This document shows, piece by piece, positions 26,894 to 32,360 of a stretch of 64,000 nt of DNA. The notes below the pieces were generated by a model that was given only the letters and a program-made list of their open reading frames with translations, ran no database searches and was not told the origin of the DNA. This DNA comes from Pirellulaceae bacterium (GTDB taxonomy: Bacteria; Planctomycetota; Planctomycetia; Pirellulales; Pirellulaceae): contig BPJV01000013.1 in the NCBI GenBank assembly GCA_026004795.1, positions 33,791-97,790 on the forward strand, given 5' to 3'. The number at the start of each line of letters is the position of its first letter. Within the stretch, counting starts at the first letter, position 1. The position numbers and the translations under genes were made by a program.

Positions 26894-29800
26894 TCAAGGG
26901 AGGGGACTGGATGCGCAACGTTGCAGCCAACGGCTGATGGCCGGAATCGCAGCGATTTCATAGGGACGAAAACGTTGTTGGTGGCCGGTCGCCTCGTCGT
27001 AGAGCAACATCTCGTGGGCCCCAAGCCGAGCCGCCGTCAGGGAATCAACCAGACTGTTGGCGTCCGCAGCACCCATTTGCATCAGTAGGCGAACCTCGAA
27101 TTCCTTCAGCAGCGATCGCCCCAACCATCGTTGAACCGACGAATTTGCGTCCGCCCATGCGATCGTGAAGATGCCGTGGGAGGGACCCTCGACAAGAATC
27201 TGCTCAAACTGCTTGCTCAATGATGGCGTCTCCGTGTCGAGGTTCCCGAAGTCGAATTCATCGCTGCGTCGCAGCTCGCGGATGCGACCGAGATTGAGGA
27301 TGATCAGCAGATGAACGGGCAGAGTGGATGCCGCGGTTTGCTCCGCCTGTCTCTCCTCCAGTCGTTGATACGTCCGGACGATCGCTTCGGCGGCGTTGCG
27401 TGGATCGCTAATGGCAACTGTCGGCCTCCCCTCCCGCCACAGATCGGGCAACGACGACACGTGCTGGTCGGTCGGGCGTGCGGCCTGGATCACTTCACCA
27501 CTGAAGGGAATATTGCCCATCGAGCACCTTCGCGCCACCGACGCCATAATGGCGTGCAACGTGGCTGCCGCCGGTCCCTCCTGATTCCCTACCAACAAAA
27601 CGTTGCGCCCCGGTTGATAGGTCAATGGGAATACTACGGCGGGCCGGAGCGCCACGCTCTCTCCGGCAAGGCACCATACGGCGTGGGGATTGAGTTGAGA
27701 GCTGGCGTGATCGATCGCCTGGTCGGCAGCGTCCTCATTCCATCTGGCCGGCTTGCTGCCATCAAAAACGATCGCGGTGCCCAGTACGTTCGTTGTCGCG
27801 TCGGTATTGTGATAGCCATGTCCGACCCGTTCCAACACCTCGCGTTGCGCGGAATGGGCAAGCCAACCGACCTGCAACGGTTGATTCCCCTCGATGCGAC
27901 CACCGGCGTCGTTGTAAATCGCCTGTCCAGGATGTTTCAAACGACTGGCCGCGGGATTGTCTTCGTCAAAAATGATGTGAGTATCCGACGGGTCGCACTG
28001 CAGCGCAATGCGCACGCCGATTTGGCCTAATGTTGTTCGCGGCAACGAGTAGGATCCACCCAGTGTTTGACTGGCCAGAACCGCATGGATGCCAAAGGAG
28101 CGCCCCTGGCGGACAATACGATCCAGCGCCAACTCGGCCTCCGCGGTAATCTTGTCATCCTCGCAGAACAACTCCTGAAACTCATCGATGATCACCAATA
28201 CCCGAGGCAGAACGCGGTGGGGAAAACGCTGGTTCCAAGCCGTGATATCTTGCACTCCCTCACGGCGAAACAGTTCGCCGCGGCGCTGCAAGCACTCGTT
28301 CACGTAGGTCAATGCGCTCAGCCCGAACTCGCGGTGGCTTTCGATACCGATGATGTCGGCATGCGGTAATTCGGCGTCGGCGTAGACTTGAAATTCGACT
28401 CCTTTTTTGAAATCGAGCAGTACCAACCGCAAACGATCGGGACTGTACCTGGCCACCGCGCTGGTGATCAGAGCATGCAAGAGTGACGATTTTCCGGATC
28501 CCGTCTTGCCAGCGATGATCGCATGCTGAGCGGTTCCCGTGCCTAAGCGCAGCGAGTGCACGCGCCCCACGCCACTTTGACCAATGGGTATTTCCAAGGC
28601 GAAGGAGCTATCCTGCTGCTGCCAGGCCCGGTGGTCCGGCAAGACTTGTTGTAGTGGCACCTCGATGCGCGCCGCCTGTTGGGCGCGTCGGCCAACCTCC
28701 ATCACCAGTTTTTCAGCGACCGCATCGTCGACTGAACCGGATTCCCCGACGGGAACCCTGGTGTGATCGTTCACCGCCAATTGCCAGTGCCCGGCAGCCG
28801 ACGCTACATGGAGATGCATCCAGTCTCTCCACGCTTGTTGAATCGCCTCGCCAATGTCGTCGTCGCCGGTGGGATGTTCAAGGCACAGAATTGGGAAAAT
28901 GCCACATTTTGGACCCGACTCCATGAGACTGAGCAAATGCCGTTGCGCCGATTCGTCCAAGGCGGCCGGGAATCCGCGCCAAATGAGGATGCGAAAGGGT
29001 TCGGCCAGCGCCTGGGCGTCGCGATTGTATTCCACGATGTGGCGGTATTTGTTGCGCAATGCTTGCTGAATGATGTCTTCAGCCGCCTGTGCCAGTCGTT
29101 CAAGTTGCCTCGCTACGTGTCGTGGCTGGGTCCACACCCGATGCGTCACCAACTCCGGATCGTAGTCGGCCAGGTGCATCAACCAACCAAAGTCTCGCCC
29201 CAGCCCCTGAGGATCGACAACGCATATCTGCACGCGTCCCGCAGGGGATGAGGTCAACACTCGCAACAGCAAGGTCTTGAGCAGGTTTCCCACTGCAGTG
29301 GGAGCCTCAGTGGCATGGAGAACCAGGCCCCCGTCGTCGAGCGGAGAATAGAGCACAGGAACGGGGGCCACTGAGGATTGCGTGGCGGCGAGTTCCGCAG
29401 AAAGGCTGGAGGCCGAAACGCCCGCCCCCAGGGATCGCTCCAGCGTGCCGATGGGCACCACGGGAGCCTCGACCGGGGGCGGCCAGCTATCCGGGGCGGC
29501 AACCAGCTTCTTCCAATCTGGGAAACACTTTTGGCACCATTGCTGATGGGATTGCAGAAACCTTTCTCCGGTGGCGAGGCCGCGCTGCGTACGGATACGG
29601 ATCTGCGCATCGGTCGCCTGCAGCTGCTGGTCGAGCTGCTTCGTCGCCAACTCGGTTTGCTCGATGGCTTCCTGTTCGTCGGCGCGGTACCGCAACTCCA
29701 GCTCACTCAATTGTGCCTCCTCGGCAGCCTCCAATTCGGCCAGCCGGCGATCCAACTCCTGCGCTGCCAGTCGTTTTTGTTGCGCCGCGTACTGTTGCAA

Positions 29801-30871
29801 ACGATCTCTGGTGGCGGTCAACTGCGAGCGCAACTCGGATACCCGTTGTTCGCACCATTGATTGGCTCGCTCGCCGCGACGTCGCCTGGTTTCCTCGAGC
29901 CGCTCGATCGCGTCTTGGTAGTGCTGTTGCCCCGCTGCCTCCACGGCGCGACACAGCCCCTCGATCCGTTGCATCGCGCCGAGCAGTTCCGGTGCCCGGC
30001 GGCGCAGCACAGTACGCAACCAGGGCCGGATGCCGACGACGATGACAAGCAAGAAAAGAATCGTCGCTCCGCCGGCAACAGCTACCGCCGGCAGCAGTTT
30101 CAACCAGCCGCTCCCATACACGACGCAGAAAGAAACAATCAGCAAGGCGCCGCATAGTGCCCACAACCAGGCAGTGCCGAATAACCGCAACAGAGGATGC
30201 CGGGAAACCTGCTGCACCAACCGTCGCGCTGGCTCAAGTTCTCGGTCGATCTCCTCCAACATCCGCCGCGTCTCGTCGCCCCCGGCGAGCGCCTCATGGC
30301 CAACCCAGTTGGTTTCTTGGCTCGTATGCGGTGCGAGGTTGAGCTGCGCATGCATCGCATGCCACTGGCGAACAATCGCCTCCAGTTGCTGGCGGCATCT
30401 GGCCACTTGCTGGCGGAGCTGTTGATAGACGCGCGCATGAGCTTCTTTCTCTTGTTGCCCCTGACGCTCCAGCTCCGCAATTCTTTGCCGCGTCTTTTCT
30501 TCGGCCAGCTCGATGCCGCGGCGCGTCTCTTGTCGTAAACGTTGGATTTCGTCCTCCGTATCGCGAATCGCTTTGTAGGTTCGCAACTCGGCCTCGTCCC
30601 ACGCTTGCATTCGTTCGGCATCGATCGTCTCGATCGCTTCCCGGCGGCGCTCCTGCCATTGCGACTCCAGGCGTTGCACAAGCGACGCGAGTTCCGTTTG
30701 CAAACGCTCCTTCTCCTGGGCAACGGCCTGGCGATGCGCGCGCAACTGTTGAGCAAATCGCTGTTGTCGCGCATCGATTCCTTGCAGCAATCGCAGCAAG
30801 CGTCGGTAAGGAATCGGGCGTGAGTGATCAGCATGTCGCATGGTCGTTACCACTTCCGCTGTGTTCCCCAA
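26894..30871 (-). CDS. FtsK/SpoIIIE-type membrane ATPase with N-terminal coiled coils (type VII secretion EssC/EccC-like)
   Basis: 1325 aa; ~200 aa coiled coil, TM pair (LWALCGALLIVSFCVVYGSGWLKLLPAVAVAGGATILFLLVIVVGI), second coiled coil, then FtsK domain with Walker A IAGKTGSGKSSLLHAL, Walker B VLVIIDEFQELF, RSFGIHAVLASQTLGG. Confidence 0.88.
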   Translation of the reverse strand: MGNTAEVVTTMRHADHSRPIPYRRLLRLLQGIDARQQRFAQQLRAHRQAVAQEKERLQTELASLVQRLESQWQERRREAIETIDAERMQAWDEAELRTYKAIRDTEDEIQRLRQETRRGIELAEEKTRQRIAELERQGQQEKEAHARVYQQLRQQVARCRQQLEAIVRQWHAMHAQLNLAPHTSQETNWVGHEALAGGDETRRMLEEIDRELEPARRLVQQVSRHPLLRLFGTAWLWALCGALLIVSFCVVYGSGWLKLLPAVAVAGGATILFLLVIVVGIRPWLRTVLRRRAPELLGAMQRIEGLCRAVEAAGQQHYQDAIERLEETRRRRGERANQWCEQRVSELRSQLTATRDRLQQYAAQQKRLAAQELDRRLAELEAAEEAQLSELELRYRADEQEAIEQTELATKQLDQQLQATDAQIRIRTQRGLATGERFLQSHQQWCQKCFPDWKKLVAAPDSWPPPVEAPVVPIGTLERSLGAGVSASSLSAELAATQSSVAPVPVLYSPLDDGGLVLHATEAPTAVGNLLKTLLLRVLTSSPAGRVQICVVDPQGLGRDFGWLMHLADYDPELVTHRVWTQPRHVARQLERLAQAAEDIIQQALRNKYRHIVEYNRDAQALAEPFRILIWRGFPAALDESAQRHLLSLMESGPKCGIFPILCLEHPTGDDDIGEAIQQAWRDWMHLHVASAAGHWQLAVNDHTRVPVGESGSVDDAVAEKLVMEVGRRAQQAARIEVPLQQVLPDHRAWQQQDSSFALEIPIGQSGVGRVHSLRLGTGTAQHAIIAGKTGSGKSSLLHALITSAVARYSPDRLRLVLLDFKKGVEFQVYADAELPHADIIGIESHREFGLSALTYVNECLQRRGELFRREGVQDITAWNQRFPHRVLPRVLVIIDEFQELFCEDDKITAEAELALDRIVRQGRSFGIHAVLASQTLGGSYSLPRTTLGQIGVRIALQCDPSDTHIIFDEDNPAASRLKHPGQAIYNDAGGRIEGNQPLQVGWLAHSAQREVLERVGHGYHNTDATTNVLGTAIVFDGSKPARWNEDAADQAIDHASSQLNPHAVWCLAGESVALRPAVVFPLTYQPGRNVLLVGNQEGPAAATLHAIMASVARRCSMGNIPFSGEVIQAARPTDQHVSSLPDLWREGRPTVAISDPRNAAEAIVRTYQRLEERQAEQTAASTLPVHLLIILNLGRIRELRRSDEFDFGNLDTETPSLSKQFEQILVEGPSHGIFTIAWADANSSVQRWLGRSLLKEFEVRLLMQMGAADANSLVDSLTAARLGAHEMLLYDEATGHQQRFRPYEIAAIPAISRWLQRCASSPLP

Positions 30872-31013
30872 AGTTCAGCAGGCTCGGCCGCGGATCGATC
30901 TCGTTCCGCACCACCGGCCGATAGCACCTCTTGGCCGGCCGCTGGATTGCGCCTTACCAATGCTCTGCAAGGGTATCAGGAGCTGATAAGGAAGCCTCCT
31001 GGGCAACACGGTG

Positions 31014-31256
31014 TCATTGAGCTTGGGTCTCTTTCAACTGTTCCATCATCCGCTCTGCCAACTCGATCTGCTCGGCCAATCCGGTCACCAAAGAGTTGAA
31101 AGCGGGAGTGAGTATCTGGAGGTATTGCGTGCAAAACTGCCGCCCGACATCATCCTTCCATAGCTCCTGGGCTTCCGTAAACTCCGCATGCAACGCCTCG
31201 CCCAATCTCGCCAGCCGTTGCATGCATCCCGGCAAATCGTGATTTTCGCGTCGCAT
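31014..31256 (-). CDS. WXG100-like small helical protein (second copy)
   Basis: ORF 31014..31358; likely start ATG 31256: MRRENHDLPGCMQRLARLGEALHAEFTEAQELWKDDVGRQFCTQYLQILTPAFNSLVTGLAEQIELAERMMEQLKETQAQ, 80 aa, central W-K-D...F flanked by predicted helices. Confidence 0.65.
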   Translation of the reverse strand: MRRENHDLPGCMQRLARLGEALHAEFTEAQELWKDDVGRQFCTQYLQILTPAFNSLVTGLAEQIELAERMMEQLKETQAQ

Positions 31257-31351
31257 GGAAACTCTCTTTTCGATGCAATGACCGCTGTGTTGGACGAGCC
31301 AGCCGGACAGGCAGCGGAGCGACCGCATGGTCCGCTGCTCCCCGCCGCGGC

Positions 31352-31975
31352 TTAACAAGTATCTTCGCTGCCAAGCTGTTCACCTGGTTTCTGCTTCACT
31401 GCGGCATCCTCGTCTACCACGAGCTGAGGACGATCAGGTGCCAGTGATTTCTGGGGGACGGAGTCTCTACTGGGGACTGTGTCATTGGTGTAGCGATGCA
31501 GAATATCGATATACCGTTGGAGACGTTGCAACCCCTGATACAGATCTCCTTCGACGACATCTCGGCAATGAAGCATCCGCGCCGTCTGCTTGGTCATCGA
31601 TTGTTGCCATGCCCGTGCCGCAGCGCGCGCAGCACGCAATTTGGTCGCGCACAGCTCCTGCCGCTGACGAGCGATTATCAACCGTTTCTTCTGCTCGGTG
31701 CAAGGACGACGCTCCTCGTCGCGCACCGTTGCCATGCAGCGGCTGAGGGCTTCCTGCGCTTGCACCACGTCCAACTGACTGCGGCGGTACTGCTCGGCCC
31801 AGTAGGCGGGCGCATCGGTTTCGATCCACTGGGTCAATCGCCGCAATTGCAGCTGTAGTTGCTCCAGCGCTTGAACGGTTTGGTGGCGTAATTCGCCCAT
31901 TCGCGTCTGCAGTCGCTGCAACCTTGCCAACGAGCGAACTTCGGCATGGTTGGCCATGGCACCTTCCCCTCCCAT
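31352..31975 (-). CDS. Coiled-coil protein in WXG100/FtsK cluster
   Basis: 207 aa; Gln/Arg/Leu-rich helical sequence (RLQTRMGELRHQTVQALEQLQLQLRRLTQWIETDAPAYWAEQYRRSQLDVVQAQEALSRC); lies between the two WXG100-like genes on the same strand. Confidence 0.75.
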   Translation of the reverse strand: MGGEGAMANHAEVRSLARLQRLQTRMGELRHQTVQALEQLQLQLRRLTQWIETDAPAYWAEQYRRSQLDVVQAQEALSRCMATVRDEERRPCTEQKKRLIIARQRQELCATKLRAARAAARAWQQSMTKQTARMLHCRDVVEGDLYQGLQRLQRYIDILHRYTNDTVPSRDSVPQKSLAPDRPQLVVDEDAAVKQKPGEQLGSEDTC

Positions 31976-32090
31976 AACCGGCTCAGCTATTTGTCGTCAT
32001 GCGGTTCCCGGCGGTCGCTGCGGGCGTCTGATTGCAGCACTTGCGGCAGCAATCTTCCTCTCCCGGCAACCGTTCGAGCCATTCCCCGGG

Positions 32091-32360
32091 CTATTTTTGC
32101 AAGTACTGGTCGATGATTTCAGCTTTCTTCAGCAAATAAGGGACATGCCTGTCCGTGGACTCGAGCAACTTGTTGACCGTCGTCAACTGCGCGGCGAACT
32201 CCTCGGCAAACTTTCGATGCTCTTGGTCTCGCCACGACTCGGCCAGTCGTGCCTCCGCCTGCACCACGGCGGCAGTTGCCTCGCGAACCTGCTGGCTGTA
32301 TCGCCGCAGCAGCATGGCAAAAGTCCGTAGTTGTTCGGGGTCGACAATCGCTTGCGGCAT
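32091..32360 (-). CDS. WXG100-like small helical protein (first copy)
   Basis: 89 aa; MPQAIVDPEQLRTFAMLLRRYSQQVREATAAVVQAEARLAESWRDQEHRKFAEEFAAQLTTVNKLLESTDRHVPYLLKKAEIIDQYLQK; two helices around S-W-R-D...KF, as in WXG100 proteins. Confidence 0.75.
   Translation of the reverse strand: MPQAIVDPEQLRTFAMLLRRYSQQVREATAAVVQAEARLAESWRDQEHRKFAEEFAAQLTTVNKLLESTDRHVPYLLKKAEIIDQYLQK

Follow-up and report, generated by a model that had tools for sequence, protein, structure and literature searches.

A 64,000-nucleotide stretch of DNA from a Pirellulaceae bacterium (GenBank assembly GCA_026004795.1, contig BPJV01000013.1, positions 33,791 to 97,790; hereafter, the window) carries a four-gene operon whose products, two small WXG100-like helical hairpins (A and B), a coiled-coil protein (C), and an EccC/EssC-like ATPase with a predicted membrane anchor, probably form one working machine. 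In its construction, the set resembles the core of the type VII machine with which tuberculosis bacteria and staphylococci export proteins. We interpret this set as a compact type VII-like protein engine, in which A and B would present C to the membrane ATPase and the ATPase would move the complex, an interpretation that we consider evenly poised between right and wrong. Its direct support comes from the operon itself and its conservation, the family assignments of A, B, and the ATPase, membrane helices detected by hydropathy, a single intact ATPase domain, the co-inheritance of A, C, and the ATPase, and the swapping of the C-protein end. That such movement amounts to secretion is something we infer, because the same module exists with membrane-helix-free ATPases in defence-like operons.

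Operon conservation and co-inheritance

The four same-strand genes proposed in a preliminary description of this DNA are all present in the window, in the order A-C-B-ATPase on the minus strand (Table 1), and this order is kept across relatives. Comparison with these relatives and with ribosome-binding sites refines two gene starts: C probably begins at its second ATG (31957) instead of 31975, and the ATPase at an in-frame ATG (30841) instead of the TTG at 30871. A good match to an AGGAG site precedes A. Using iterated profiles, we recovered the full order and strand in 26 of the 35 order-level loci (the window being one of them), and the full order in 15 of 20 from more distant planctomycete families, the other five having some genes elsewhere or not found nearby. 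Among 80 loci fetched independently from a genome collection, all recorded as metagenome-assembled genomes and nearly all labelled Planctomycetota, A-C-B-ATPase was found in 37 of the 38 that contain the ATPase. No other neighbour is conserved in 55 loci, where the best clusters (at most 7 of 55) consist of generic genes at varying distances.

The same association holds at the level of whole genomes. Of 60 relatives, 39 have both A and the ATPase, 20 have neither, and one has the ATPase alone, on a contig that ends there; C is present in 38 of the 39 relatives having A, and is an equal, co-inherited part of the set, not an accessory. A broader survey of 393 Planctomycetota genomes found A and the ATPase together in 61, one of them singly in 3, and neither in 329. 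All single cases are draft assemblies, namely A alone in one 72%-complete genome, and the ATPase alone on a contig beginning just before the gene and in a 61%-complete genome. Co-occurrence persists when the genes lie far apart on one contig, by hundreds of kilobases or more (3.6 Mb in genome G020, 3.4 Mb in G083, and also in G166, G211, and G367), hence linkage is no explanation, and mutual dependence explains the pattern. Conservation beside the ATPase in relatives, on which the preliminary description had made its reading depend, thus extends to all parts, and conserved order together with co-occurrence rules out chance open reading frames (ORFs). Each genome encodes one A and nearly all encode one C, and no further A-like or C-like proteins suggestive of effector arrays were found in this genome, with rare exceptions in relatives; there is therefore no visible toxin repertoire.

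Small hairpins A and B

Sequence comparisons identify A as a WXG100-like protein nearest to Helicobacter HP0062, and B as a diverged relative of A. The A protein of the window matches Pfam WXG100 at 4.7e-5, under the curated cut-off, while 26 of 26 A-family members match this model, the best at 2.6e-11. When searched against the Protein Data Bank (PDB), the A-family profile retrieved Helicobacter pylori HP0062 first (2.7e-10), followed by EsxB and EsxA. The solved structure of HP0062 is a helical hairpin, which is the fold that had been anticipated for the small ORFs. HP0062 has a WRD motif as well, and clusters with an FtsK/SpoIIIE protein (PMC3397514). B alone, as a single sequence, yielded no match in family searches; it was recovered by the iterated A-family profile, at the same position in most loci, and its own profile matches Staphylococcus aureus EsxA at 1.4e-3.

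The bend motif W43-R44-D45 of A is invariant, with W-R-D in all 26 members, and B has W-x-D in 29 of 29. The W-x-G motif reported in the preliminary description is in neither protein (26 A and 29 B sequences examined). Membership of the WXG100 superfamily is supported by sequence similarity to Esx proteins, clear for A and weak for B. We use the label "WXG100-like" because W-x-D replaces W-x-G.

An ATPase of the EccC/EssC type

As previously proposed, the ATPase groups with EccC/EssC, and not with FtsK, by family, profile, tree, and fold. It matches the FtsK_SpoIIIE family at 8e-33 and, within it, scores 2.2e-32 against EccCa vs 5.5e-5 against FtsK. The profile of the central domain retrieved EccC D1 domains first (3.3e-49; FtsK at 1e-17), and a fold search with residues 445-1318 returned the EccC of Thermomonospora curvata (3e-31), then EssC, with FtsK from 6e-16, making EccC and EssC the nearest solved structures by both approaches. 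In the ATPase-domain tree, planctomycete domains fall apart from the FtsK proteins of the same genomes, the FtsK clade having a support of 100/99; branches in this tree are long, and it supports the separation from FtsK, not an exact sister group.

The protein contains three tandem ATPase domains, vs four expected of EccC/EssC. HHalign relates the central domain to the C-terminal one (probability 98%, 1.8e-12), which in turn is linked to the first domain (92%, 6.7e-7). The D0-like and C-terminal domains are degenerate, and Walker A and B are confined to the central domain in 35 of 35 ATPases examined, its Walker residues being invariant in all aligned relatives. Membrane anchoring is predicted from hydropathy, which places two helices at around residues 229-247 and 264-282. 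Hydrophobic segments at the EccC position are widespread in planctomycete ATPases, with at least one in 78 of 80 and at least two in 66 of 80.

Protein C as a putative carrier

C belongs to no family recognised in our family and profile searches. Its AlphaFold model (predicted local distance difference test, pLDDT, 86) is one long antiparallel hairpin, with helices at 10-83 and 93-165. A fold search with this model retrieved generic coiled coils only, with no match at E <= 0.001, and matches from a C-profile search of the PDB were meaningless. Across 58 sequences, W50, W59, and Y162 are invariant, and a cysteine beside the hairpin tip is conserved (C92 in 56 of 58; C80 in 40 of 58). The end of the protein is swapped within planctomycetes: it is bare in the window, whereas some C proteins from other planctomycete families (L097, L099, and L100) end in an Imm33-like domain that scores above cut-off (PF24719; Table 1). 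C thus looks like a carrier with a swappable end, the new evidence being these Imm33-like tails and, in the equivalent position of an operon on a Helicobacter plasmid, a coiled-coil nuclease with a SUKH-family immunity gene after it.

Related modules in other genomes

WXG100 and FtsK modules are known in Gram-negative bacteria (PMC10765036, PMC4978471, PMC11090510), where they occur in a few taxa and were never confirmed as secretion systems (PMC10765036). Several resemble the planctomycete operon. The Helicobacter HP0062-HP0066 cluster likewise combines a WXG100-like protein with W-R-D and an FtsK-family ATPase (PMC3397514, PMC4978471). A plasmid of a cat Helicobacter displays the same gene order as the planctomycete operon, but with a nuclease on the middle protein, a SUKH-family gene following it, and an 823-aa ATPase without clear membrane helix. 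In the coiled-coil protein of this plasmid, the N-terminal helical part also contains a hydrophobic stretch close to its midpoint. Further variants of the module are found on Deinococcus and Rhodococcus plasmids. In the Deinococcus variant, the gene directly before the EssC-like ATPase encodes a 142-aa coiled-coil protein whose C terminus forms a membrane helix. The ATPase itself has no such helix, as though the N-terminal part of the planctomycete ATPase were here a gene of its own.

The second group of relatives is linked to CoCoNuT systems, whose extension module comprises two WXG100 proteins, a coiled-coil nuclease, and an ATPase in which one domain of three, the central one, is active; such modules also occur stand-alone (PMC11090510, citing Anantharaman 2012). 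One order-level genome (G035) encodes the ordinary operon along with a second, CoCoNuT-like version (locus L064), which adjoins transposase genes and whose 1063-aa ATPase is without membrane helix, and the same kind of operon is found on a Caballeronia plasmid (L208). The planctomycete operon shares with the CoCoNuT III-A extension an EssC-like ATPase with an N-terminal coiled coil and a single active, central domain, two WXG100-type proteins, and a coiled-coil partner. The CoCoNuT form differs in having a nuclease on the coiled coil, TerY-VWA, PP2C, and helicase neighbours, and no membrane helices, whereas the planctomycete form is membrane-anchored by hydropathy, stand-alone, single-copy, and phylum-wide.

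Compared with type VII secretion systems (T7SSs) of classes T7SSa/T7SSb and T7SSc-j, the planctomycete set has in common WXG100-fold partners and an EccC/EssC ATPase in which two membrane helices precede the ATPase domains. It departs from them by its three rather than four ATPase domains, its W-x-D motif, its diderm host, and the lack of EccB, EssB, EsaB, and LXG proteins; export, in its case, is putative. The preliminary description had considered other type VII components to be lacking, and this is borne out for EccB, EssB/YukC, EsaB/YukD, and LXG, none of which was above cut-off genome-wide, EccD, EccE, MycP, EssA, and EsaA not having been searched genome-wide. Its view of a reduced or non-canonical T7SS-like machine is consistent with the presence of the core parts and the absence of the other components tested, although this kind of machine is not unheard of in Gram-negatives. 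What is new is a stand-alone, single-copy, phylum-wide, and toxin-free form, membrane-anchored according to hydropathy, of a kind already known from Gram-negatives and functionally unconfirmed. Our literature text search found no paper on planctomycete WXG100 systems, with two possible mentions (Sutcliffe 2011, Anantharaman 2012) being outside this search.

Proposed mechanism and alternative readings

In the proposed engine, A and B would bind C by its long hairpin and hand it over to the membrane ATPase, which may be hexameric by analogy with EccC/EssC. The single active ATPase domain would then drive the complex of A, C, and B into the inner membrane or through it, presumably in the direction of export. 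C would act as the carrier, its counterpart ending in a nuclease in mobile relatives and in an Imm33-like domain in some planctomycetes. This model parallels that of LXG toxins with Lap1/Lap2 in T7SSb, because in both a helical carrier (~200 residues) with a swappable end is accompanied by a pair of small WXG100-like hairpins and an EssC-type ATPase, to which the LXG toxin can be sent only with its two small partners (PMC9600955). Unlike LXG toxins, however, C has no LXG family match and no toxin end in the planctomycete proteins examined, and the FxxxD export motif is not conserved in A or B. The role of the planctomycete version may be one of housekeeping, not killing.

Several observations weigh against this engine. 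The YxxxD/E export signal was found in 0 of 26 A, 0 of 26 C, and only 2 of 29 B proteins. Planctomycetes are diderm, i.e., have two membranes, and neither a partner in the outer membrane nor any further type VII component is known for the set. Its single copy and absence of a toxin repertoire set it apart from antibacterial type VII systems. The C profile did not match the Helicobacter nuclease protein, so that their homology rests on position and coiled-coil form. The co-occurrence of A and the ATPase in the 393 genomes has a Fisher p of 5e-68, a value that ignores phylogeny. Finally, the ATPases of mobile relatives are without clear membrane helix, hence the core mechanism could work without a membrane.

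This last point makes an intracellular stress or defence device the main rival, in which the ATPase would pull or remodel the A-C-B complex, or bound nucleic acid, inside the cell, with the membrane helices as mere tethers. The nearest modules do sit in TerY-VWA/PP2C/kinase/helicase operons (L064 and the Caballeronia plasmid), and a housekeeping-like single copy fits a role in cell biology. Yet hydrophobic segments occur where EccC has them in most planctomycete ATPases, the planctomycete set has no conserved neighbour of the kinase, phosphatase, nuclease, or helicase type, and WXG100 partners with EccC-like ATPases are export machines wherever tested; we regard this device as rather unlikely. 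Less likely again is an export system for cargo proteins from other loci, in which A, B, and C would be permanent adaptors within the apparatus. Such a role could account for components being kept together even when unlinked, and for within-genus identities of 33-39% for most pairs of the fast-evolving B and C vs 67-78% for the conserved A and 73-77% for the central ATPase domain. Since no second protein with an A-like or C-like domain exists in the genome, and rarely in relatives, this cargo would need another signal, and none was identified. Lastly, an FtsK-type DNA translocase or plasmid-maintenance protein with unrelated small neighbours is very improbable, and strongly disfavoured by family scores, tree, and fold search: the ATPase does belong to the FtsK/SpoIIIE superfamily, but a distinct FtsK is encoded in the same genome, FtsK proteins form a clade of their own with full support, EccC scores far better, and the ATPase is inherited together with A and C.

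Genomic neighbourhood

A tRNA-Leu gene lies directly downstream of the operon. A release-factor-like ORF with a GGQ motif follows downstream, in the same orientation as the ATPase gene, and is also found near the operon in three other loci (L032, L034, and L047). On the other side, a 617-aa ORF reads as a SufS-like cysteine desulfurase with a SufE-like C-terminal extension, and a SufS-like ORF also adjoins the operon in L031 and L034. A 177-aa ORF further away reads as an FHA-domain protein. FHA domains are present in EssC proteins, but an FHA-type gene is not recurrent as an operon neighbour in other loci.

Table 1. Coordinates of the operon, its neighbours, and the modules compared with it (aa, amino acids)
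Feature	Location	Strand	Description
A	window:32091-32360	minus	89-aa WXG100-like helical hairpin, HP0062-like, W-R-D in bend
C	window:31352-31957	minus	~201-aa putative coiled-coil carrier; ORF opens at 31975 (207 aa)
B	window:31014-31256	minus	80-aa second WXG100-like hairpin, W-K-D, diverged
ATPase	window:26894-30871	minus	1325-aa EccC/EssC-like ATPase; N-terminal coiled coil, two predicted membrane helices, coiled-coil stalk, three tandem ATPase domains
Central ATPase domain	window:27857-28654	minus	Walker A (GKTGSGKS) and Walker B (IIDEF); equals D1 of EccC/EssC
Release-factor-like ORF	window:26055-26588	minus	GGQ motif
SufS-like ORF	window:33296-35149	plus	617 aa
FHA-type ORF	window:35614-36147	minus	177 aa
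C with Imm33-like end	L097:8320-9450		Other planctomycete family
C with Imm33-like end	L099:8222-9298		Other planctomycete family
C with Imm33-like end	L100:8608-9759		Other planctomycete family
CoCoNuT-like module	L064:3341-17998 (G035:C3)		Two TerY-type VWA genes, WXG100-like protein, coiled coil with restriction-endonuclease-like end, small protein, 1063-aa ATPase, PP2C phosphatase, Mokosh-like helicase
Helicobacter plasmid module	L207:6731-11133		Helicobacter sp. NHP19-012 plasmid pNHP190012_1 (cat Helicobacter); WXG100-like protein, coiled coil with WHH/colicin-type nuclease, SUKH-family protein, 77-aa helical protein, EssC-like ATPase
Deinococcus plasmid genes	L209:8036-11316		142-aa coiled-coil protein and EssC-like ATPase

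Significance

Our comparison defines the smallest complete set as A, C, B, and the ATPase, and co-inheritance indicates that these parts depend on one another even when unlinked. Beyond the engine itself, we tentatively suggest, at somewhat short of even confidence, that the set may be an obligate four-protein type VII-like exporter, without the classical partners tested, which would move its own C across the planctomycete inner membrane for a core cellular purpose, and which would have evolved from, or given rise to, mobile toxin or defence modules by loss or gain of the C effector end and of the membrane anchor. The comparison also places type VII-like carriers, the defence extensions of CoCoNuT, and the toxin modules of Helicobacter in a single family whose cargo end can be exchanged, and this phylum-wide, single-copy, toxin-free version provides a setting in which to test whether Gram-negative WXG100 and FtsK sets secrete.

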